DNA of 42,800 nt from a virus. The notes below the pieces were generated by a model, which was not told the DNA's origin, searched no databases, and saw only the letters and a program-made list of their open reading frames with translations. The translations under genes were made by a program, and so were the position numbers. How positions within the stretch are numbered: the stretch's first letter is position 1; each line of letters begins with the position of its first letter. Shown piece after piece: positions 794 through 42,050 of this stretch. The stretch is from positions 1 through 42,800 of IMG/VR virus record IMGVR_UViG_3300044294_000097; one strand, written 5' to 3'.

Positions 794-1257
794 GCCGGCG
801 TCCTTTCATCGTTGGCGCGCATCCGCGCGAGTTGTTCCTCAGACCAGTGCGCCGCAGCCCGGGCGATGCCCAGGGGCACCTGGCGCGCCAGCGCGTCAAT
901 CAGGTCCACGCCGTGCCGGGCGAGCTGCAGGCCGGGCCCGTCGAAGCCCACGCGGCCGGTGCGTCGCCAGCGCGCGATCAGTTCCAGGCAGAGCTGCAGC
1001 TGCTCACGCATCTCGTCTTGGCCAAGGCCGGTCAGGTCGGCCGCGCGGGACCACATCAGCACGTTGGCCACCCAGTCCCAGAGCGTCTGGGCCGTGCCGC
1101 GGCCGTTTGCGAGCTGGTGCAAGGTGTCGATGTGAGCAATCTCCAGCGACAGCACGTCGCTGGCTGGAAGCGGCTGCAGCGCGTCGGCCGGGCGCGACTG
1201 CGGGGGCGCGTAGGCAGCCTGCAGGGCTGCGGCGGTGGGCGAGAGCGTGAAGCGCAT
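790..1257 (-). CDS. Hypothetical early phage protein, 155 aa
   Basis: Unrecognised 155-residue protein, predicted mostly helical. The centre (EIAHIDTLHQLANGRGTAQT, then LWDWVANVLMWSRAADLTGLG) reads like a long helical bundle, followed by QLCLELIARWRRTGRVGFDG. No transmembrane or metal-binding pattern is visible. Start ATG at 1257 overlaps the stop of the DUF1643 gene (ATGA), and its own stop overlaps the next start, so it is embedded in a translationally coupled chain. No function can be assigned. Confidence 0.7.
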   Translation of the reverse strand: MRFTLSPTAAALQAAYAPPQSRPADALQPLPASDVLSLEIAHIDTLHQLANGRGTAQTLWDWVANVLMWSRAADLTGLGQDEMREQLQLCLELIARWRRTGRVGFDGPGLQLARHGVDLIDALARQVPLGIARAAAHWSEEQLARMRANDERTPA

Positions 1258-1766
1258 CAGCGCACCCCCACCATCGCGTCAGCAATCGCCTGGACCGTCA
1301 GCGGCTTCAGTCGCAGCTCGCCTGGCAGGTACAGCGGATGCTCGGGGTGGCCCGTTCGCGTCAGCCGCAGGTACTGCGGCGCGCTTCCCAGGCTGCGGAT
1401 CAGGTTCAGCACCTCTGCAGGGCGGCGGGTCTCGGCGCCAGCAGCACCCCAGGCGCAGCAGACGGCGCCGTGTTCGCGCACGGCCGCAGTGATGTGCCGG
1501 TCGTTCTCTGGGCCCACTGGGTAGCCGGCCGCCTTCAGCTCGCGCGGGTAGGCCGTGCGGAATGCAAAGAGGTTGACCACCTCCAGGCCCGCGAAGCCAT
1601 GCACCTGGGCGAAGCTGATGCAGCGCCGGATGGTCCGGTCGTCGACCGTGTCGTCGGCGGTGCTGGGGTTCAGCATCACGAACACCAGCACGTGGCCGTC
1701 GGCCCAGCGGCGACCCAGGCGGTACCGGAAGGCGCCGCACTCAGAGATCAAGGCGGTGCGCTGCAT
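1257..1766 (-). CDS. DUF1643 family protein
   Basis: The 169-residue product carries the DUF1643 signature: VFVMLNPSTADDTVDDRTIR, then CISFAQVHGFAGLEVVNLFA, then PVGPENDRHI, CAWG and a C-terminal G.PEHPLYL element. The family is found in phages and bacteria and its biochemical role is not established. Start ATG at 1766 is chosen because it overlaps the stop of the upstream helicase-methyltransferase (ATGA), although the reading frame stays open far upstream inside that gene. The family is known; the function is not. Confidence 0.85.
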   Translation of the reverse strand: MQRTALISECGAFRYRLGRRWADGHVLVFVMLNPSTADDTVDDRTIRRCISFAQVHGFAGLEVVNLFAFRTAYPRELKAAGYPVGPENDRHITAAVREHGAVCCAWGAAGAETRRPAEVLNLIRSLGSAPQYLRLTRTGHPEHPLYLPGELRLKPLTVQAIADAMVGVR

Positions 1767-4330
1767 CAGGCGGGCTCCAGTTCGCCCTCGGCGGGCTCCA
1801 GGTCGAACAGGGACGGCGTGCTGAGCTGCCGCACCGCGGCCTCGCAGTAGCCCACGCCATCCAGGAAGTAGGGCTTGGACAGTTCGCAGCCGCGCCCGCG
1901 TCGGCCCAGCAGCACCGCCCGATAGGGCACGGTCATCAGGCCCCCGAAGGGGTCGTAGACCTCCTCGCCCTTCATCGAGTACTGCGTGATGGCCCGGTCT
2001 GCAATGTCGAACTGCATCGGGCAGAGGTGCATCTCGCGCCCGGCGGCCGACTGCGCGCCGTTGAGCGTGCGCATGCGCGTGATGTCGGTCCAGACGTCCG
2101 GGTGCCAGCTCTGCGGCTGCAGCAGCATGAAGGTGGTCGGCAGCATGCCGCGCTGGGCCAAGGCCTCGCCGATGCGCACGTCGTGCTCCCAGTCGTAGAC
2201 CTGCTCCAGCGAGTGCTTGCGGAACAGCTTGAAGATGTCGGCGTGCGTCAGGCCTTCCAGCTCCTCGGGCGTGAGCAGCCGGTCGCCCTTGCTGCGCGCG
2301 AAGCCGTGCGCGTCGAACTGCCAGCGCGGGCGGGAGTACTCGACCTTGTCCTTCACGACCGGCAGGTCGGCGTAGCCGCGGCTGGCGTCCGTGGGCGCCT
2401 TGCGGAACAGCAGCAGGTACTCGCAGAGGCCGAAGCCCATGCGGCTGCCATCCTTGCACTGCTCGCTGTAGCCCAGGCGGTAGGTCTGGTTGTTCTCCCG
2501 CACCACGTCGGTGACGATGGTCTTGCGGCCCACGAAGTGGAAGCCGTGCCGGCGGAAGCAGGCGATCGTGTCCACGTCGAAGGGGTACTCGGTCTGGAAA
2601 CCCACGCCCTCGACCATGCCGCTCGGCACGATGCGGTTCTTCACGTGGATGGCGGCCACCCGGCCGGGCATCAGCACGCGCAGCAGCTCCGGCACCAGGT
2701 AGTCCATCTGGCGGAAGAAGTGCTCGTTGTTGTCGGTGTGGCCGAAGTCGGCGAAGTTGGGCGAGTACTCGTACTGGGTGCTGAACGGGATGCTGGTCAG
2801 CACCAGGCCGACGCTGTCGCTGGCCATCAGCCGCGTCTCTTTCACGCAGTCGTTGTTCACCAGCGTGTACTCGCCGCCCTTGGCCTTCACCTCGACGCGC
2901 TCCACGCCCATCGCCCGGCTGAGCGTCTGGATCATGGCCGCGTGCGACAGGCCGAACTCCTTGATGATCTCGGTCATGCGTTGCACCTGCTCTTTGTGCT
3001 GCGCCCACTTGCGCTCGAGAGTCCGGCGCACCTCGCGCTCGGCCTCGGTGTAGATCAGGTCGATGCGCACCTGCCGCGTCTGCAGGAAGCGCTGCAGGCG
3101 GTGGATCGACTGGATGAAGTCGGCGAACTTGAAGCCGATGCCCAGGTAGATGGCCCAGGCGCAGTGCCGCTGCAGGTTGCAGCCGCTTCCCAGCAGCACG
3201 GGCTTGCTGCTCAGCTCCTGCAGCTCGCCGTCGCTGAAGGCCACGACCAGCGGCTCGCGCTCGGTCTCCGGGTCCTGGGTGCCGTAGACGCTGGCGATGC
3301 CCGGGATAGCGCGCTCGATCGCCCGCCGCTCGTCCTCGAGGTCGTGCCAGATCACGCGATGCGCGGCCGGGTCCTCGGCGCGCAGCTCCATCAGCTTGGC
3401 CACGCGGGCGTCCAGGCTCTCGCGCTTCTCGCGCGCCGCGTCGACCACGCCGATGGCCTGGCGCTTGAACATCTGCACCTGCCCGTCCAGGTTCACGCCG
3501 GCATCGGCGTGGTCGGCCGGAATCTCGTGCCAGCGGATGTCGAGCGGCGGGAGCTCGTAGCCCTCGTCGCTGTAGCCCAGGTCGGAGGGCTTCTGCACGA
3601 ACAGGGCCCAGCTGGCCACCCACAGCCAGAAGTCGCGCTCGCGGGCCGGGCTCAGCGTCAGGTGGTCGGCCTTCTCGCTGTTGCGCTTGAAGAAGCGGGT
3701 CTTGGCCTGGCCCACGTCCATCACGCCCAGGAAGGCGCTATAGGCCAGCAGCTCAACGAACTCATTCGGGCTGGGCGTGGCCGTGGCCACGAAGCGGTAG
3801 GCCACCTCGGCGCCCTTGATCCGGTTCGCCATGTCGCGCCGGTCGTCGCCGGCGAACAGCGCCATGAATTCGCGGAACGTCTTGCTGCCGCCGAAGCCGC
3901 GCAGGCAGGCTGCCTCGTCCAGGCTCGTGACGCTGAACAGCCGCGGGTCCAGCTTGCGATCGCGCACGGTCTCGTAGTTCGTCAGGTAGATGCCGTCGGG
4001 GTCCTCGGCCTCCTCGATGCGGCGGATGAACTTCACCGCGATGCCGAGGCGCGCGGCGTCGCGCATGAACTCTTGCCGCACGCCCAGCGGGATCACGATC
4101 AGCGCCATGCCGCCGACGCGCCGGCGCACCAGCCGCACGATCTCCAGCTGCACGAAGGTCTTGCCCAGGCCGAAGGCCATGAACAGCGCAGCGCAGCCCA
4201 GGCGGATCGCCCAGATGACCGCGGCCACCTGGTGCGGCTTCAGCAGCGGGTTGATCTCGGCCGGGTCCACGTCGAAGCCCTTGGGCTGCGCGATCGTGAC
4301 CTTGGCGCGGAGGAAGGCGTCGTAGTCCAT
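1766..4330 (-). CDS. SNF2/DEAD-type helicase fused to a beta-class DNA methyltransferase
   Basis: This 854-residue protein has two halves. Residues 1-440 are a superfamily 2 helicase-like ATPase: GLGKT (54-58, Walker A), DEAA (138-141, motif II), TATPSPNE (183-190, motif III) and QSIHRLQRFLQ (407-417, motif VI-like). Residues about 455-840 are an amino-methyltransferase: the catalytic loop TSIPF (512-516) precedes the SAM-binding DPFGG (793-797), the beta-class order. The catalytic loop is a variant of the usual S/D-P-P-Y/W. Such fusions occur in phage early regions and probably protect phage DNA from restriction; the target base and site are unknown. The start at 4330 overlaps the C5 methyltransferase stop (ATGA). 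An upstream extension exists in frame but lies inside that gene. Confidence 0.85.
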   Translation of the reverse strand: MDYDAFLRAKVTIAQPKGFDVDPAEINPLLKPHQVAAVIWAIRLGCAALFMAFGLGKTFVQLEIVRLVRRRVGGMALIVIPLGVRQEFMRDAARLGIAVKFIRRIEEAEDPDGIYLTNYETVRDRKLDPRLFSVTSLDEAACLRGFGGSKTFREFMALFAGDDRRDMANRIKGAEVAYRFVATATPSPNEFVELLAYSAFLGVMDVGQAKTRFFKRNSEKADHLTLSPARERDFWLWVASWALFVQKPSDLGYSDEGYELPPLDIRWHEIPADHADAGVNLDGQVQMFKRQAIGVVDAAREKRESLDARVAKLMELRAEDPAAHRVIWHDLEDERRAIERAIPGIASVYGTQDPETEREPLVVAFSDGELQELSSKPVLLGSGCNLQRHCAWAIYLGIGFKFADFIQSIHRLQRFLQTRQVRIDLIYTEAEREVRRTLERKWAQHKEQVQRMTEIIKEFGLSHAAMIQTLSRAMGVERVEVKAKGGEYTLVNNDCVKETRLMASDSVGLVLTSIPFSTQYEYSPNFADFGHTDNNEHFFRQMDYLVPELLRVLMPGRVAAIHVKNRIVPSGMVEGVGFQTEYPFDVDTIACFRRHGFHFVGRKTIVTDVVRENNQTYRLGYSEQCKDGSRMGFGLCEYLLLFRKAPTDASRGYADLPVVKDKVEYSRPRWQFDAHGFARSKGDRLLTPEELEGLTHADIFKLFRKHSLEQVYDWEHDVRIGEALAQRGMLPTTFMLLQPQSWHPDVWTDITRMRTLNGAQSAAGREMHLCPMQFDIADRAITQYSMKGEEVYDPFGGLMTVPYRAVLLGRRGRGCELSKPYFLDGVGYCEAAVRQLSTPSLFDLEPAEGELEPA

Positions 4331-26923: not shown

Positions 26924-27556
26924 ATGCCACTCGTCCAGACCGCAGTCCCAGGCCTCGAGCCGATCACCACGGCGGAGGCAAAGAACTACCTGCGCCTGGA
27001 CGCTGACCTGACCCAGGACGACACGCTGATCGCCGTCCTGATCTCTGCTGCGCGCGCCTACGCCGAGAGCTACTGCAACCGCAGCCTGGTCCAGCAGGGC
27101 TGGCAGCTGCTGCTCGACAGCTTCCCGAGCCCGCAGGCCTTTGGTGTGCCCTGGGGGCAGCCGTGGAGCATTCCGGCAAACGCGATCCAGCTCGAGCGCG
27201 GTCCGGTGATCACGCTCGACTCCATCAAGTACCGGGACATGGGCGGCACGTTGCAGACGATGGCGTCGAGCCTCTACACGCTGGACGCGAGCAGCCCCAT
27301 GCCTCGCGTCACGCCGGTGTTCGGCGCCGTCTGGCCGGTGTCCCTGCCGCAGATCGGCGCGGTGCAGGTCAACTACACGGCCGGCTACGGCGTGGCCGCG
27401 ACCGACGTGCCCGCTGGCATCCGCCAGTGGCTGCTGTTGCGCGTGTCGACGCTGTACCGCAACCGCGAGGAGGTCGCCATCCTCGGCCGCGGCAAGGTGG
27501 ACCCGCTGCCCTTCGTCGACTGCCTGCTGGACCCGTACCGGGTCATTCAAGGCTGA
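26924..27556 (+). CDS. Head-tail connector (HK97 gp6-like)
   Basis: 210 residues. The start EPITTAEAKNYLRLDADLTQ followed by DDTLIAVLISAARAYAESYC is the typical connector signature, and VPAGIRQWLLLRVSTLYRNR near the C-terminus completes the helical core. Between them lies a beta insertion. It should form the ring below the portal. Position directly after capsid and decoration genes agrees. Confidence 0.9.
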   Translation: MPLVQTAVPGLEPITTAEAKNYLRLDADLTQDDTLIAVLISAARAYAESYCNRSLVQQGWQLLLDSFPSPQAFGVPWGQPWSIPANAIQLERGPVITLDSIKYRDMGGTLQTMASSLYTLDASSPMPRVTPVFGAVWPVSLPQIGAVQVNYTAGYGVAATDVPAGIRQWLLLRVSTLYRNREEVAILGRGKVDPLPFVDCLLDPYRVIQG

Positions 27557-27558
27557 CC

Positions 27559-27903
27559 ATGGGCGGCAACGCAGTGCGCGGCGGCGACTTCAACCGCCGC
27601 ATCGCGATCCAGCAGCGCAGCAGTGGCACGCCGGACAGCTTCGGCCAGGCCTCGCAGACCTGGACCGACCTGCTGCAGTGCTGGGCCCGCATCGAACCGC
27701 TGAGCGGCCGCGAGCTCGTGCTGGCCCAGGCTCAAAGCGCCGAGGTCACGCACCTCGTCGAGATCATGTACCGGCCCACGGTGACCGCCGCCATGCGCGT
27801 GGTCTACCAGGGCCGCATCTTCAACGTCCTGTCGGTGATCGACCCCGACATGGCGCACGTCACGCTTGAGCTGCTGTGCAGCGAAGGCCTCAACAAGGGC
27901 TGA
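27559..27903 (+). CDS. Head closure protein (SPP1 gp16 / HK97 gp7-like)
   Basis: 114 residues from ATG 27559: GGDFNRRIAIQQRSSGTPDS, FGQASQTWTDLLQCWARIEP, SGRELVLAQAQSAEVTHLVE and the final MRVVYQGRIFNVLSVIDPD. This is the conserved beta-barrel head-tail joining family that plugs the connector until tail attachment. It starts three bases after the connector's stop. The frame is open upstream only as a shadow of the connector gene. Confidence 0.9.
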   Translation: MGGNAVRGGDFNRRIAIQQRSSGTPDSFGQASQTWTDLLQCWARIEPLSGRELVLAQAQSAEVTHLVEIMYRPTVTAAMRVVYQGRIFNVLSVIDPDMAHVTLELLCSEGLNKG

Positions 27904-27908
27904 AGACC

Positions 27909-30035
27909 ATGCCTCGTGTTTTTGCACCGACCCCTTTCCGCTGGACCGACGGCCAGGACTACCCCTACGGCTGGTTCGACCTTGCAGATGACAGCAAGGC
28001 CCGGGCAATGAAGGCCGCGGGCCGCGTCACTGACGGCGTTTTCGATGCGCCCGACGACGCGGCTACTCCGCGGGTCATCACGCAAGACGTTCTGCCGATT
28101 TCTCAACTCGCCGGCCAGTTCGCGTCGGTCGCACCGACGCCGGCAGCCATGAAGGCGTTCGGCGGCATTCCGATCGTGACTTTCAACAACGGTCTGTCGG
28201 ACATCAACGCCGGGCAGTCGTTCATCGGCTCTGGCGGCAGCTACACGCCGCGCCCCGGTCAAGGGCTCACAGCCGCAACGCCTATCGGGGTCGCCCCGGG
28301 GCCATCGGGAGCGTTCACCGAGATCACGGTCGACCTGTCGGCCTCGCAAACTTCGAACCTGCGTCAGTTCTTCTACGAGAACGCCAACGCTGTGATCGCC
28401 GTACTGCTCAAGGTGCCAGCCAACAGGCCCTACACGGGCTTCACGCTCTACGCCACCACGCAAGCGGCCAACTATTCGAACAACAACTGGGCGAACTCCA
28501 CGGTGAGCTTCAGCGGCCTGTCTCGCCCTGGCTGGTACATGCTCGGTTTGACCCTGTCCCGCTACGGTTTTGCCGACACCAGCAACACGGTCCAGTACGG
28601 CATGACGCCGGACACCACTTCCGCTGCCAACAACCTGCTGGACAACAACACCACGCCGATCGACCGCCTCAAGCTGCGGTTCAGTTCGTCGTCGGCCAAC
28701 ACCGTCGGCACCGCCGAGGTGCTGGTCGACTCGGTCTGGCTGCTGCCGCACTCGCCGGGCATCTCGATGCTGCACATGGACGATGGCTACATCAGCCAGT
28801 ACACCGAGGGGTTCGAGTACGCGGCCCGGCGCGGGGTTCCGTTCACGCTGGGCATCGTCAGCTCGCTGCTGGACACCGCGGGCTACATGACCACCGCACA
28901 GGCGATGGAGATCTACGCGGCCGGCAACGACCTCGTGAACCACAGCCACACGCACATCAACGTCAACGCCAAGACCACGAACGGCGTGGCCACGTCGCAG
29001 ACACCGACCTCCGGAGCGCTGACGCTCACCGCGTCGCCAGTCGTGCTGGACGCGCCGCGCTGCATAACGCTCAACTGCACGGCTGACGACACTGGCCGCC
29101 CCCTGACGATCGTGGGACTTGACGAGAATGGACAGGCCCAGACCACCACGATCTACGGCACGAATGCGTCGCAGACCGTGACGGAAGAGGTCTGGACCCG
29201 GATCAACTCAATCACCGCGGCAGCGACCTGGACTGGCGCCATCACGATCGGCACGACGTACAGCTACGCCGAGCAATTCACTGAGTACAACACCTGCAAA
29301 GCGAAGCTCGTGTCCATGGGCGTGACACGCGGGCTTGATTGCGCGATCTATCCGACGGGTGCGAGCAACACCCTGACCGATCGGGTGATGGCAGCGCTCG
29401 GCATCACGGTAGCGCGGACGTTGAACACGCCTGCCTATTACGCGTACCCATTTGCACCGGGTTTCAACCCGCTGCAGCTGCCGGGGTATGGCGGCGGCGG
29501 GTCCACTGCGATGAACCAGGCCTTCCGCTACACGGCGGCGCGCTACAACACTGGCAACGGCACCATCGGCGGAGCTTCATTCACGGCCAACGCTACCCCT
29601 CAGCTTGAATGGTCCGTGTTGCTCACCTCCGGCACGACGTTCAATGTCGTGGACAACTCCACGGGGGTGCTCATCGGCAGCGGTACCGTCGGCACGCCGT
29701 TCACGAGCTATGCACGAAAGAGCCCTTTGAACGGCGCCAACTGGACGGTGACGTTCACGGTCACAGCAGGTGGCACTGCCTTTGTTGCAGGCGACGAGTT
29801 CGCCGTGTTCGTGACCAGCTTGGCCACGACGTACAACAAAGAGACAGCGCGCCGAATGGCCTGCGGGTGCTGCTACTTCCACAAGATCGCCCGCAACGGC
29901 GCCCAGGACTCGCTGACAACGATGGTCCCCGACTTCCGTGCGACGGTTGACGAGATGGCCAAAGACAGGGCCGCCGGCCGGGTCAAGACACCCACCATGT
30001 CGCAGTTCAGCGCGATGCTGAAGAACGCAAGCTGA
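27909..30035 (+). CDS. Large polysaccharide deacetylase-like (NodB/CE4) virion protein
   Basis: 708 residues from ATG 27909. The N-terminus (about 1-70, APTPFRWTDGQDYPYGWFDL) looks like a structural anchoring module, followed by a beta-rich domain (about 85-280). From 283 a NodB-type deacetylase appears: SMLHMDDGY (DDG at 291-293), NHSHTH (H345 and H349, the HSxxH metal site), AIYPTG (about 479-484) and CYFHKI (His658). Two beta-rich blocks are inserted in it, about 354-452 and 545-640. CE4 enzymes remove acetyl groups from polysaccharides, so it may modify host capsule or O-antigen. The gene sits between head closure and tail terminator genes, an unusual spot for a receptor-processing enzyme. 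Confidence 0.7.
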   Translation: MPRVFAPTPFRWTDGQDYPYGWFDLADDSKARAMKAAGRVTDGVFDAPDDAATPRVITQDVLPISQLAGQFASVAPTPAAMKAFGGIPIVTFNNGLSDINAGQSFIGSGGSYTPRPGQGLTAATPIGVAPGPSGAFTEITVDLSASQTSNLRQFFYENANAVIAVLLKVPANRPYTGFTLYATTQAANYSNNNWANSTVSFSGLSRPGWYMLGLTLSRYGFADTSNTVQYGMTPDTTSAANNLLDNNTTPIDRLKLRFSSSSANTVGTAEVLVDSVWLLPHSPGISMLHMDDGYISQYTEGFEYAARRGVPFTLGIVSSLLDTAGYMTTAQAMEIYAAGNDLVNHSHTHINVNAKTTNGVATSQTPTSGALTLTASPVVLDAPRCITLNCTADDTGRPLTIVGLDENGQAQTTTIYGTNASQTVTEEVWTRINSITAAATWTGAITIGTTYSYAEQFTEYNTCKAKLVSMGVTRGLDCAIYPTGASNTLTDRVMAALGITVARTLNTPAYYAYPFAPGFNPLQLPGYGGGGSTAMNQAFRYTAARYNTGNGTIGGASFTANATPQLEWSVLLTSGTTFNVVDNSTGVLIGSGTVGTPFTSYARKSPLNGANWTVTFTVTAGGTAFVAGDEFAVFVTSLATTYNKETARRMACGCCYFHKIARNGAQDSLTTMVPDFRATVDEMAKDRAAGRVKTPTMSQFSAMLKNAS

Positions 30036-30039
30036 ACAC

Positions 30040-30393
30040 ATGCCGACCCTCGTCGAGTCCGTGCAGGCCGTGCTGCAGCCGCTGGCTGCGGGCGGAAGCT
30101 GGTACCAGGTGAACACGGCGCAGCCCGCGCAGACGCCCTACATCGTGTTCTCACGCATCGCCAGCCCGGCCAACGTCACGCTGCAGGGCGCATCCAACCT
30201 CCAGAACACGCGACTGCAGGTCGACGCGTACTCGCGCAGCGTGCAGGAGCTGATCACGCTGGGCGACAGCATCGAGGCCGCCATGGCCGCCGCCGGCTTC
30301 ACCAACGTGCCGCTGACCCAGCGCGACATGTACGAGCCGGACACGAAGCTCTACCGCACGAGCTACGAGTACAGCGTCTGGTCCACCAACTGA
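30040..30393 (+). CDS. Tail terminator/completion protein (DUF3168 type)
   Basis: 117 residues: LVESVQAVLQPLAAGGSWYQ, TPYIVFSRIAS, TRLQVDAYSRSVQELITLGD, SIEAAMAAAGF and DTKLYRTSYEYSVW. This is the typical DUF3168 / gp17-like tail completion fold that caps the tail tube at the head end. It follows the deacetylase gene by four bases and precedes the tube protein after a terminator. Confidence 0.85.
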   Translation: MPTLVESVQAVLQPLAAGGSWYQVNTAQPAQTPYIVFSRIASPANVTLQGASNLQNTRLQVDAYSRSVQELITLGDSIEAAMAAAGFTNVPLTQRDMYEPDTKLYRTSYEYSVWSTN

Positions 30394-36755: not shown

Positions 36756-39700
36756 ATGCCGCCCGTCATCATCGCCGCCGCCGCCGCCTACGTCGGCGCC
36801 ATCTCTCTGACGGCCTTCGTGGTCATCACGGCCAGCTATGTGGTCGGCCAGTACCAGGCTGGCCGCGCCCGGGCCAAGGCGCGCGACGCCTACAACGCGA
36901 GCCTGAAGGACCGGCTGGTCTCCACGACCACGGTCGACGGCTTCCGCAGCCGTGTCTATGGCCGCGTGCGCAACGTGGACGGCATCCTGTTCAAGGCGAC
37001 GCGTGGCGACAAGAGCCAGTACTACACGCTGGTCGTGGCCCTGGCGGGTCACGAGTGCGACGCGATCGAGACCGTCTACTTCAACGATACCCCGCTGACG
37101 CTCGACAGCAATGGCTACGTGCTGAACGCGCCCTGGGGGGGCACGACGGTCGCGTCTGGTGGGCGCCTGTTCTTCGGGCAGGGCACGGTCAACCTGACCG
37201 GCGGCAACGGCTCGGCCACGATGCCCGACATCCCGATCGCTGCCACCGTGAAGGTGAGCATCGACGGCAACCTGGCGTCTTCCTCCTACGTGAGCGTGTC
37301 CGGCAGCACCGTGACGGTGACCGGGTTCGACGGCTACACCGGCACCGCCACGGTGAACTACCAGTGGAACCAGACGGCCAGCGCCGCGAGCAGCAAGGCC
37401 CGCGTGCGCAAGTACCTCGGGACTCCGGGCCAAGACCTGAGTACCGTGCTGGCGCCGTTGTTCCCCGGTCTGATCACCAGCGGCCGCCACCGGTTCGCTG
37501 GCATCTGCTGCCTGCTGGTCGACCTCGAGTACGACCAGGATGCGTTCCCCTCGGGCGTCCCGCAGATCTCGGCCGTGATCCGAGGCGCCAAGGTCACCGA
37601 CCGGCGCACCGGCGTGACCGCCTGGTCGCAGAACCCGGCTGTGATTGCTGACGACTGGGCCCGGTACTCGCAGGGCGGCGGCGCGCAGGACTCCGAGCTC
37701 GTCGCGTCGTCGTTCATCGCGGCCGCCAACGCCTGCGACGTGTCGCACACCTTCAGCTCAACCAATGCCGACGGCACGGTGACCAGCACCACGCGGCCGA
37801 TGTACACCTGCAACATCGTCTGCAGAACCGACGCGAACCCCAGCGACACCCTGAGCGCGATCGTCGAGTCGATGGCGGGCGGCTGGGCGTGGACCGGCGG
37901 CCAGCTGCGCGTGCGGGCTGGCGCGTACTCGGCGCCGGTGGCCACGCTCACCGAGAGCTGGTGCGGAGGCCAGGGCGACATCGACATCATCGCGAACGCT
38001 GCCCGAAACGACCTGATCAACGTCTACGTGCCGACGATCGCCAACGAGGCGCAGGCCTACGTGGCCGCGCCGGTCCCGCGGGTTGCAGCGGATGCCTACA
38101 TCTCCCTGGACGGCGGCGAGCTTCCCCGCGACATCAACCTCGAGGGCGTGACGGACGCAGACCACGCTCAGCACATCTGCGGCGTGCTGCTGCGCGATCA
38201 GCGGCAGGGCCTGACGGGCAGCATCCCCTGCAACCTCTCGGCCTACCCAATCGAGGTGTTCGACACCATCGCGCTTGACCTGCCGCGCTTCGGCTTCAGC
38301 GGCAAGACGGTGATGGTGACCGGCTGGCAGTTCAGCCAGACCGGCGGAGTGATCCTGACCTGGAAGGAAACCGACGCGTCGATCTTCGACCCGGACGCGG
38401 GCTTCACGCGCAGCGATGCTGCGCCCAACACGCAGCTGGCCAACCCGTTCTACGTCCCCACGCTGTCGCTCAACACGCCCCTGAGCGGCACCGCCCAGCT
38501 GCTGAAGCAAGCCGACGGCACGATCGTCAGCCGCATCCTGGTCAGCTGGTCGGCGGTGCAGGACGCGGGCGTGCTCAACGGCGGCACGATCGAGATCCGC
38601 TACGGGCTCGCCACGCTGCCGTCGTCGCAGTGGCAGGTCGTGACCGTCCCCGGCACGGACACGCGGGTCTACCTTGACGGCGTGCAGGACGGGGCCATCT
38701 ACGTCATCTCGGCCCGCTGCCGCAACAAGCTCGTGACCGGCGACTGGTCGACGCTGCTCGCGCACAAGGTGGTCGGCAAGACGGCCGCACCGACCACGCC
38801 CTCTGGCTTCGCGTTCGCCGACGCGCCGGGCGGGTCGATGCTGACGTGGAACGCAAACACCGACACCGACTACCTCGAAAGCCGTCTGGCGCTGGGCTCG
38901 ACCTACGCCGGCGCCACCGAGCTCTGGCGCGGCAGCGCGAACAGCTTCTTCTGGCTGCAGGCCACCGCCGGCACCTACACGGTGTGGCTGACCCATCGCG
39001 ACACCAGCGGCAACGTGTCGACGCCGGTTTCGCTGAGCGTGGTCGTGTCCGCCGCTTCGGCCTCTCTGGTGCAGATCGAGTACTCGGTGGACGGATCGAC
39101 CGCCTGGCACACGACCTTCACGACCGGCGACATCTACATGCGCCAGCGCGTGGGCTCGACGGGCGCATGGCAGGGGCCTATTCGGATCGTCGGCCAGACC
39201 GGCCCGACGGGCCCGACTGGACCTACCGGGTCGACCGGCAGCCCTGGTACGGATGCAACGCAGGCCGCCACGGTCACGCTCTGGCAGTGGGCAACGGCAA
39301 CGCCCACCGATCCCAGCGGGTCGTCCACCTATACCTGGTCCTCGGGTGCGCACAGCGGCTACACCGGTGGCGGCGGCTGGGCGACGTCGATCCCTGCGAA
39401 CCCCGGCACGGCGGGGATCAAGCTCTGGCAGGCGGTCAAGACGATCACCGCTTCCGCCACAACCAGCAGCAGCACCGTGTCGTGGGCCAGCGGCTTCAGC
39501 GTCGCCGCTGTCTCGGGCAACGGCAACAACGGCAGCGCCGGCCTACAGAGCGCGACGCCGACCGTGTACCAGTGGGCCAGCAGCATCCCGGCCGGCCCGT
39601 CAGGCGCAGCGACCTACACCTGGTCCACCGCGAGCTTTGGCGCGGCGCCGTCCGGCTGGTCACTAACGCCTGGCACGTCACCCAGCGCGGGCTTCACACT

Positions 39701-40844
39701 CTGGGCCGCCTCCGTGCAGGTGCAGGACAGCGCGGCCAACACGACGACGGCCTTCAACTGGACTTCGGCCAGCATCACGGCGCGCGGCTACGCTGGCCTG
39801 CAGGGCGGCACCGCGCGCTATGCATACGCCCGCATCGCCGGCAACCCGACGCCCTCGACGGCCACCGTCACGACCTCTGGCAACAGCAGCTTCCCGGGAT
39901 CAACGTCGTGGGGCCTGTCTGCATCGTGGGCGGCGAGCGACCCGAACCCCTCCAGCACCAGCACGCTGTACCAGACCGACGGCGTCTACGACCCGGCCAC
40001 CGGGAACACGGTGTGGACCACGCCCTACATCAGCAGCCTCAAGGTCGGCAACCTGTCAGCAGTAGCCGCCAACACCGGGTCGTTGACCGTGGACAGCACG
40101 CTGACGCTCAGCGGCTCCGGGATGATCAATCAAGGCGCCTACACGGGCTTTGCATGGCCGGCGTCGGGCACTGGCTTCCACCTCGGTCCGCAGGGGCTGC
40201 TGATGGGCAACAACAACACGGGGGGCTACGTCGAGATCGACTCGAACGGCAACTACATCGACATCGGGAAGGCCGGCGGCCCTCGGCTGCTGTGGCAGGT
40301 CTCAGGCAGCGTCGGGACGCTCTCGCTTACCGGTGCCACGCTCACGGCCGGTCTGATCCAGACCTCCAGCTCGGGCACACGCGTCACCATCAACGAGTCC
40401 GGCAACAACAGCATCGCGTTCTACGACGGGGCCAGCATCGGCGCCTACATCGGCACCGGTGGCCCTGTCACGGCCTACGGCTTCTTTGGGCTGGCGTCTT
40501 CCGGGACTAAGGACGGTGTGTATGCCCAGGCCTACTCGGGCAACGGGGTGTCCGCCTATTCCGCGCAGAGCTACGGCGTCAACGCCAGCTCAGGCGGCAG
40601 TTTCCCCGCCGTGGGCGGCAGTTCGACCAATGGCGACGGCGTCTACGGCGTCACGAACGGATCCGGGCACGCGCTGCACGGCAAGGCCCTGGGCACCGGC
40701 AAGGCGCTCTATGCCGAAGGGCCCGCGCAGATCACCGGCGCATTCGGTTGCAACGGCAAGGCGCCACAGGCCGCTGTGGCGTCAGGCGGCACCCTGGCCG
40801 GCGTGATTGCTGCGCTTGTCGCCAACGGGATCCTGTCCTCATAG
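36756..40844 (+). CDS. Tail tip / host-specificity protein (J-like), 1362 aa
   Basis: The largest gene; the ATG abuts the previous TAG. Residues about 3-35 are hydrophobic (VIIAAAAAYVGAISLTAFVV), common in this protein type. The middle (about 45-560) is the tail-tip core, with RDQRQGLTGSIPCNLSAYPI and SGKTVMVTGWQFSQTGGVIL. A fibronectin III-like part (about 570-785) follows. Then comes a collagen-like GPTGPTGPTGSTGSPG (about 815-830), two LWQW/VYQW...YTW repeats (about 838-1015) and a Gly/Ser/Asn-rich C-terminal fibre ending in GTLAGVIAALVANGILSS. It forms the tip and probably the receptor-binding fibre, as no separate tail-fibre gene is seen. Confidence 0.9.
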   Translation: MPPVIIAAAAAYVGAISLTAFVVITASYVVGQYQAGRARAKARDAYNASLKDRLVSTTTVDGFRSRVYGRVRNVDGILFKATRGDKSQYYTLVVALAGHECDAIETVYFNDTPLTLDSNGYVLNAPWGGTTVASGGRLFFGQGTVNLTGGNGSATMPDIPIAATVKVSIDGNLASSSYVSVSGSTVTVTGFDGYTGTATVNYQWNQTASAASSKARVRKYLGTPGQDLSTVLAPLFPGLITSGRHRFAGICCLLVDLEYDQDAFPSGVPQISAVIRGAKVTDRRTGVTAWSQNPAVIADDWARYSQGGGAQDSELVASSFIAAANACDVSHTFSSTNADGTVTSTTRPMYTCNIVCRTDANPSDTLSAIVESMAGGWAWTGGQLRVRAGAYSAPVATLTESWCGGQGDIDIIANAARNDLINVYVPTIANEAQAYVAAPVPRVAADAYISLDGGELPRDINLEGVTDADHAQHICGVLLRDQRQGLTGSIPCNLSAYPIEVFDTIALDLPRFGFSGKTVMVTGWQFSQTGGVILTWKETDASIFDPDAGFTRSDAAPNTQLANPFYVPTLSLNTPLSGTAQLLKQADGTIVSRILVSWSAVQDAGVLNGGTIEIRYGLATLPSSQWQVVTVPGTDTRVYLDGVQDGAIYVISARCRNKLVTGDWSTLLAHKVVGKTAAPTTPSGFAFADAPGGSMLTWNANTDTDYLESRLALGSTYAGATELWRGSANSFFWLQATAGTYTVWLTHRDTSGNVSTPVSLSVVVSAASASLVQIEYSVDGSTAWHTTFTTGDIYMRQRVGSTGAWQGPIRIVGQTGPTGPTGPTGSTGSPGTDATQAATVTLWQWATATPTDPSGSSTYTWSSGAHSGYTGGGGWATSIPANPGTAGIKLWQAVKTITASATTSSSTVSWASGFSVAAVSGNGNNGSAGLQSATPTVYQWASSIPAGPSGAATYTWSTASFGAAPSGWSLTPGTSPSAGFTLWAASVQVQDSAANTTTAFNWTSASITARGYAGLQGGTARYAYARIAGNPTPSTATVTTSGNSSFPGSTSWGLSASWAASDPNPSSTSTLYQTDGVYDPATGNTVWTTPYISSLKVGNLSAVAANTGSLTVDSTLTLSGSGMINQGAYTGFAWPASGTGFHLGPQGLLMGNNNTGGYVEIDSNGNYIDIGKAGGPRLLWQVSGSVGTLSLTGATLTAGLIQTSSSGTRVTINESGNNSIAFYDGASIGAYIGTGGPVTAYGFFGLASSGTKDGVYAQAYSGNGVSAYSAQSYGVNASSGGSFPAVGGSSTNGDGVYGVTNGSGHALHGKALGTGKALYAEGPAQITGAFGCNGKAPQAAVASGGTLAGVIAALVANGILSS

Positions 40845-41280: not shown

Positions 41281-41625
41281 ATGACCGAACCCACTTCCGG
41301 CGCTGCTGCAGGCCTGGCCTTGGCCAAGCTGCTGCCGGCAGGGCTCGGCGCGGCCATCATGGTGGCCGTCGACATGCCGAAGACGCGCAGCGAGTTCTTC
41401 GCCCGCTTCTTCGTCGCGTTCGCGTTCTCGCACTTGTTCGGCGACTGGGTGCTGGCGGAGCTGCATCCGTGGTTGCCGCACCTGAGCGCGCGCGTCGTGG
41501 ACGGCACGCTGGGAGCCCTGGGCTACTTCATCGCCGGCGGCGTGAGCGTGCTGGCCAAGCGGTTCCGCCGCAAGCCGCTGGAGACGGCCCGGGCCATCAG
41601 GCGCGAAGTGAAAGGCGAGCCATGA
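41281..41625 (+). CDS. Putative holin, 114 aa
   Basis: Starts MTEPTSGAAAGLALAKLLPA behind GAGGGGG. Hydrophobic stretches LLPAGLGAAIMVAVDM, FFARFFVAFAFSHLFGDWVL and GTLGALGYFIAGGVSVLAKR give about three membrane helices. It has a strongly basic tail (RFRRKPLETARAIRREVKGE). Size, topology and position before a likely muralytic gene fit a class I holin that opens the inner membrane. No specific holin family is recognised. Confidence 0.7.
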   Translation: MTEPTSGAAAGLALAKLLPAGLGAAIMVAVDMPKTRSEFFARFFVAFAFSHLFGDWVLAELHPWLPHLSARVVDGTLGALGYFIAGGVSVLAKRFRRKPLETARAIRREVKGEP

Positions 41626-42050
41626 AGCGCGCCACCATCACCCGGGGCCCCAGCACGGACGAAGGCACGTTCGGCATGCTGGCGCTGGACGATGGCCCCC
41701 GCCTGATGTGCCTGGAGCTGCCGTGGCGCGACAACGCCACCGGCGCGAGCTGCATCCCCACGGGCCTGTATCGCTGCGAGATCGTCAACAGCCCGCGCTT
41801 CGGCAAGGTCTACGAGGTCCGCGACGTGCCCGGCCGCGTGAACATCCTGATCCACGCTGGCAACTTCGCCGGCGACACCGCGAAGGGCTTCTTCAGCCAG
41901 CTGCTGGGCTGCATCGCTCCGGCCACCGCCGCCGGCGCCCTCCGCACGCCGGCCGGCAAGGTGCAGCGCGCCGGCATGAACAGCAAGGTCGCACTGGCCA
42001 CGGTGATGGCCTGGGCTGGCGGCGTGCCGTTCGAGCTGGAGATCCGGTGA
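41622..42050 (+). CDS. DUF5675 protein, candidate muralytic enzyme, 142 aa
   Basis: ATG overlaps the putative holin's stop (ATGA). GPSTDEGTFGMLALDDGPRL, LELPWRDNATGASCIPTGLY, NILIHAGNFAGDTAKGFFSQ and LLGCIAP are the DUF5675 hallmarks. The spaced H...(S)..GC recalls the His/Cys pair of YkuD-type L,D-transpeptidases. No classical lysozyme, amidase or peptidase is visible in the window, so this is the best endolysin candidate here. The enzymatic role is inference. Confidence 0.72.
   Translation: MKRATITRGPSTDEGTFGMLALDDGPRLMCLELPWRDNATGASCIPTGLYRCEIVNSPRFGKVYEVRDVPGRVNILIHAGNFAGDTAKGFFSQLLGCIAPATAAGALRTPAGKVQRAGMNSKVALATVMAWAGGVPFELEIR

Follow-up and report, generated by a model that had tools for sequence, protein, structure and literature searches.

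A putative virion-borne CE4 deacetylase carried on a DUF7210-like anchor module in the head-tail joining block of a tailed phage

Neck passage structure (NPS) proteins, described in lactococcal siphophages of the 936 and P335 groups, are 500-900 aa in length and displayed a conserved N-terminus of ~180 aa followed by exchangeable C-termini that were sugar-binding modules, beta-helix, or esterase-like; a collar where the tail connects to the capsid has been proposed as the structure that they build (PMC6669499). Tailspike protein gp41 of phage Aristophanes, a deacetylase of the SGNH type, deacetylated the host capsule and had a key role early in infection (PMC8471582). The head spikes of RcGTA were described as head-attached and as binding the host capsule (PMC13420450).

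The window analyzed herein, meaning the whole stretch of DNA, was an IMG/VR virus record of 42,800 bases, and it displayed the standard gene order of tailed phages: large terminase, portal, protease, capsid, a 148-aa protein, adaptor, head closure, the 708-aa gene under study, tail terminator, major tail protein, chaperones, tape measure, distal tail, and J-like fibre. A sequence-only reading of this DNA had placed a 708-residue frame in the slot between head closure and tail terminator, and this placement was borne out: the frame was open from end to end, and both of its flanks could be named by PHROGs (Table 1). The ATG at 27909 was the point from which four relatives (see below) aligned with the encoded protein P0001; an alternative start, a GTG at 27876, would make the protein 11 aa longer. 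That reading had also called the location unexpected; it was indeed unusual, but it recurred in L085, L055, L089, and the myophage-like contig L095 (see below). P0001 gave only short CE4 matches in the phage and plasmid collections, and an exact-pattern scan of IMG/VR with P0001 found no relatives. Elsewhere in the window, the C-terminal part of the frame at 1257-3623 (-) matched DUF1643 (E 5e-38), and the remainder of this frame was probably mostly non-coding; a collagen-like GPTGPTG stretch was present in the J-like fibre (36756-40844); and the region after the fibre gene (41469-42050) encoded, as judged by eye, a DUF5675-like protein, with no endolysin identified in this region.

Table 1. 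Coordinates of the 708-aa gene, its domains, and its flanking genes in the window
Feature	Position	Strand	Basis or remark
Head closure gene, flanking the slot	27163..27903	+	phrog_25, E 2e-26; likely gene shorter than the listed frame
Whole gene, 708 aa	27909..30035	+	DUF7210-like anchor, beta-rich domain, and predicted CE4 deacetylase domain with two inserts
Anchor module, residues 1-43, short strands followed by a single helix	27909..28037	+	AlphaFold pLDDT 93-97; 74% identity to L085 over residues 1-50; DUF7210-like profile match
Linker, residues ~44-86	28038..28166	+	L085 DNA similarity ends just upstream, at ~base 28022
Beta-rich domain, residues ~87-285	28167..28763	+	Aligned in the CE4 proteins of L092/L093 and L095
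CE4 part 1, residues ~286-354	28764..28970	+	DDG 291-293, HSHTH 345-349; Pfam PF01522 match at 286-360
Insert 1, residues ~355-449	28971..29255	+	Missing from L092/L093; its removal extends the Pfam match
CE4 part 2, residues ~450-540	29256..29528	+	YPTG 481-484; aligns to BpsB/PgaB motif 3
Insert 2, residues ~541-641	29529..29831	+	Insert-free relatives; in-silico removal test
CE4 part 3, residues ~642-708	29832..30032	+	FH 657-658, motif position only
Tail terminator gene, flanking the slot	30040..30393	+	phrog_78, E 2e-13

The match of P0001 to Pfam family PF01522 (Polysacc_deac_1, CE4) scored 28.3 bits (E 1.8e-6), above the cut-off of 23.1, and thus exceeded chance. When both inserts were cut in silico, the score rose to 39.4 bits and the matched span of the profile grew from positions 9-79 to 9-123 of 124 (57% to 93%). 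The CE4 motif positions DDG, HSHTH, YPTG, and FH all lay where the sequence-only reading had put them, the first of them within HMDDGY (289-294) as motif 1. P0001 kept the metal/base residues of motifs 1 (DD; D291 and D292) and 2 (HxxxH; H345 and H349) together with H658 of the motif-5-like FH, and the predicted Asp-His-His set was intact; by eye, the motif 3-like YPTG had no usual Arg, and motif 4 was not recognized. The two interruptions of ~100 residues each that had been proposed for this domain were confirmed in position by the gain in Pfam score upon their removal and by the insert-free relatives L092 and L093, which had ~50 and ~90 residues where P0001 had ~130 and ~170 (counted by eye). 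Clear relatives of insert 1 and insert 2 were not found among 50,697 phage records. The closest solved sequence was BpsB/PgaB, which was matched weakly by the whole P0001 (E 0.009); once the inserts had been removed, the match improved to E 0.0007 and motifs 1, 2, and 3 lined up. The AlphaFold model of P0001, made from a shallow alignment, was reliable for residues 1-43 only (mean pLDDT 43.7; catalytic part mostly <50) and gave no usable picture of a (beta/alpha) barrel or its metal site. Picornavirus jelly-roll PDB fold matches that fell on the low-confidence part of this model were discarded, and the Pfam matches Rad26-like_C, LAMININ_IV_B, Med13_C, and DUF3281, all below cut-off, were disregarded.

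Upstream of the CE4 part, a beta-rich domain that had not been split off before was recognized as a separate unit, and we infer it to be carbohydrate-binding-like. It was also found in CE4 proteins of L092 and L093, two prophages in one genome of the same order as the host of L085, which showed 28-29% overall identity to P0001; a search for further CE4 relatives, meant to deepen the alignment, yielded one contig, L095. In this myophage-like contig, the similar CE4 protein (L095:4171-5568) was encoded in the neck block with connector genes on one side and a sheath-like gene on the other, and its frame broke after YPQGVW. In L092 (1147-2523), L093 (946-2289), and L095, motif 2 read HGNPS, with its second metal histidine replaced, and these three relatives are perhaps non-catalytic.

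Similar CE4 proteins were located among tail or lysis genes in the G239 prophages and beside pectate-lyase spikes in a TM7 phage. These two locations would suit a relocated gene for a tailspike, mounted at the tail tip or on the side through an anchor that bound tail tube or tail-tip proteins, but the CE4 proteins of the G239 prophages and the TM7 phage carried no DUF7210-like module, and the relatives of this module were encoded in the neck block (see below); P0001 is quite improbable as such a tailspike.

In the N-terminal module, which had been said to look structural, residues 1-43 folded confidently, were common to four other phage proteins, and, by profile comparison, were related to DUF7210-like small neck-block proteins. 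Against a profile of eight small DUF7210/DUF7302-like proteins (a set that was chosen partly via DUF7210 searches and Foldseek matches and was therefore not blind), the module profile aligned end to end over 41 columns in hhalign, with a probability of 88, a single-comparison E of 3e-6, and a score of 28.4; in the column-shuffle control, 0 of 200 shuffles reached 28.4, the best of them scoring 14.2. Pfam PF23843 (DUF7210) itself did not match the module even at E 10, and the module is therefore named DUF7210-like and not a member of that family. The top viral matches of the module in Foldseek were to small proteins of phages, of which two bore the name DUF7210, with weak E values of at least 0.016, and the matches of the module alone to PDB folds were all weak (E at least 0.27). 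A module match in G582 fell in a non-phage protein and was rejected as due to chance.

In other phages, DUF7210-like proteins stood alone. Their gene (i) had the tail terminator (phrog_4204 or phrog_123) on one side and the major tail protein (phrog_807 or phrog_117) on the other in prophage L108 and in phage VWB, (ii) came after phrog_4204 in L110, (iii) came before phrog_807 in L111, and (iv) separated the major capsid gene from an adaptor-like gene in L118; in TP-84, a protein of the same kind, annotated as structural and also matching head-tail connector PHROGs, followed the capsid gene. The DUF7210/DUF7302-like proteins (PF23843 and PF23976) and the module were alike in having related profiles, a similar predicted fold, and genes in the neck block or next to the capsid gene, but the former were small and stood alone, while the module in the window was fused to a large payload. 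In a survey of 369 genomes from the class of L085's host, all other matches (E ≤1e-4) lay in open frames of ≤157 aa, compared with 858 aa in L085, so fusion to a large payload was the exception. To our knowledge, the function of the DUF7210-like family has not been described, and neither DUF7210 nor DUF7302 was mentioned in the literature searched, which was covered in part.

The only module match in the genome collection was the prophage L085, which was carried by a Burkholderiales MAG. Its tail proteins were 80-94% identical to those of the window, and the same slot was occupied by a 778-aa protein that showed 74% identity to P0001 over residues 1-50, after which no similarity could be detected. 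At the DNA level, the similarity between the window and L085 stopped at ~base 28022 (codon 38) and resumed at 30045, 5 bases into the tail terminator gene. As read from these alignments, the difference is a cassette swap in which the anchor was conserved and the payload was exchanged. The L085 payload gave no match in Pfam, PHROGs, PDB, or phage searches, and by eye it looks like a beta-helix spike.

Three further carriers displayed modular variation around the same module: (i) L002 had it on a 618-aa protein whose gene was flanked by protease and capsid genes; (ii) L019 had it on a 278-aa protein encoded after the tail terminator, with a tail-fibre-like payload resembling minor tail proteins (phrog_13892, E 8e-29); and (iii) L055 had the start of the module directly 3' of the tail terminator, the gene being cut by the contig end. 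The module genes of the window, L085, L055, L019, and L002 thus adjoined tail terminator, major tail, or capsid genes. A protein of L004, without the module, showed 40% identity to the payload of L002, starting at residue 75, and its gene followed the tail terminator and preceded the major tail protein; this arrangement in L004 and L002 indicated that payloads and anchors recombine separately. In L004 (6303-6677), the tail terminator was extended C-terminally by ~100 residues (phrog_16217) and was followed by the L002-like payload. An SGNH reading of the L002/L004 payload, made by eye, was dropped for want of database support.

The gene in the window split two structural genes that were direct neighbours elsewhere among phages, the pattern expected of an added gene, which is the point in favor of P0001 being a non-virion moron or accessory enzyme acting in or on the infected cell. 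Such a role is very improbable: the N-terminal module was kin to neck-block proteins, L019 carried a tail-fibre-like payload on the same module, and P0001 was searched for a hydrophobic signal or membrane stretch and none was seen, so that, once synthesized in the cytoplasm, the enzyme would have to be carried by the virion or be released by lysis to meet outer polysaccharide.

The slot at the neck was compared across related contigs as well. In L055 (5891-7279), a GH5-like domain (Pfam E 1.3e-21) was encoded in one frame with the tail terminator (E 8.8e-9), and this fusion was located between head closure and the module; it was seen in a single metagenomic contig in which misassembly is possible, and the scan found no second copy. 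The GH5-like domain had Gln-Gln where aligned cellulases had Gly-Glu, and it may bind and not cut because the predicted nucleophile Glu was Gln. Literature searches of partial coverage yielded neither an enzyme fused to a tail terminator nor a CE4 enzyme at the neck. Large genes amounting to 6.5 kb, partly Ig/fn3-like, extended from head closure to tail terminator in L089 (1052-7222), and a 127-aa and a 670-aa gene were present between tail terminator and major tail protein in L086 (803-3202) and missing from its sister contig L087.

The altered nucleophile in L055 and the lost metal histidine in L092, L093, and L095 raise the prospect that P0001 is likewise lectin-like or inactive, with the CE4 fold kept for binding and the inserts blocking or replacing catalysis, at whichever site the protein is anchored. 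This is somewhat unlikely, given that P0001 itself retained D291, D292, H345, H349, and H658.

As for the site of attachment, the L002 module gene between protease and capsid genes speaks against the neck and would allow the capsid instead. The same virion enzyme would then sit on the capsid shell as a decoration or at a vertex, the neck-block position being where capsid accessory genes lie; the structural protein that follows the capsid gene of TP-84 and the capsule-binding head spikes of RcGTA (PMC13420450) accord with this arrangement. But in the window, L085, L055, and L019, the gene directly adjoined that for tail terminator or head closure, and L055 had another payload built into the tail terminator itself, and we regard placement on the capsid shell as unlikely.

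Because the anchor was conserved while payloads were swapped, the module had kin in the neck block, and L055 had a GH5-like domain fused to its tail terminator, P0001 is best read as a carbohydrate enzyme borne on the virion and possibly attached to the head or neck. Its specific form is probably a virion appendage composed of a DUF7210-like anchor at the head-tail junction and an exchangeable CE4 payload acting on host surface polysaccharide. In this appendage, residues 1-43 would dock at the head-tail junction, be it on tail terminator, head closure, or nearby capsid, and the payload, made of a beta-rich and probably sugar-binding domain plus a predicted metal-dependent CE4 deacetylase with two inserted beta domains, would project outwards; on cell contact, the payload would bind surface polysaccharide and could take off its acetyl groups, and this deacetylation might help the virion to adsorb to or cross a capsule or O-antigen layer. 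Points that weigh against this form are that the DUF7210 model of Pfam did not match the module, that the Foldseek E values were weak, that motif 4 was not recognized and motif 3 had no usual Arg, and that the model of the catalytic part was of low confidence. More tentatively, and with rather less confidence than we place in the appendage, the DUF7210-like proteins might be a general neck docking plug that one lineage adapted to carry interchangeable carbohydrate-active payloads (CE4 deacetylase, spike-like protein, the large protein shared with L004, and fibre-like protein), with the addition of a GH5-like domain in the tail terminator in one case; siphophages of this lineage would then bear a set of enzymes at the neck.

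Searches for depolymerases and receptor-binding proteins usually target the tail-tip end of the genome, and such proteins may be missed when, as here, an enzyme is encoded in the head-tail joining block with a DUF7210-like anchor. Small DUF7210-like proteins in turn gain a testable role in neck docking, and a domain of 43 residues might serve to attach proteins to the neck.

BpsB/PgaB, a CE4 deacetylase of poly-N-acetylglucosamine, aligned with P0001 at motifs 1, 2, and 3, but it had neither of the two inserts, and it was a cellular biofilm enzyme and not virion-borne. Aristophanes gp41 resembled the role proposed for P0001, that of a virion enzyme removing acetyl groups. The RcGTA head spikes were encoded at separate loci, and the part of their description at hand featured neither a deacetylase nor a DUF7210-like anchor. 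The NPS proteins are the nearest known system in kind: a conserved N-terminus with exchangeable C-termini was likewise displayed by the window relative to L085, L002, and L019, as known here from the genes. The anchor in the window looks different, with 43 aa of DUF7210-like module followed by a low-confidence linker, while the NPS N-terminus was BppU-like (a domain of ~130 residues), the two being set apart by description; the hosts also differed, and the payload in the window was an apparently intact CE4 deacetylase.
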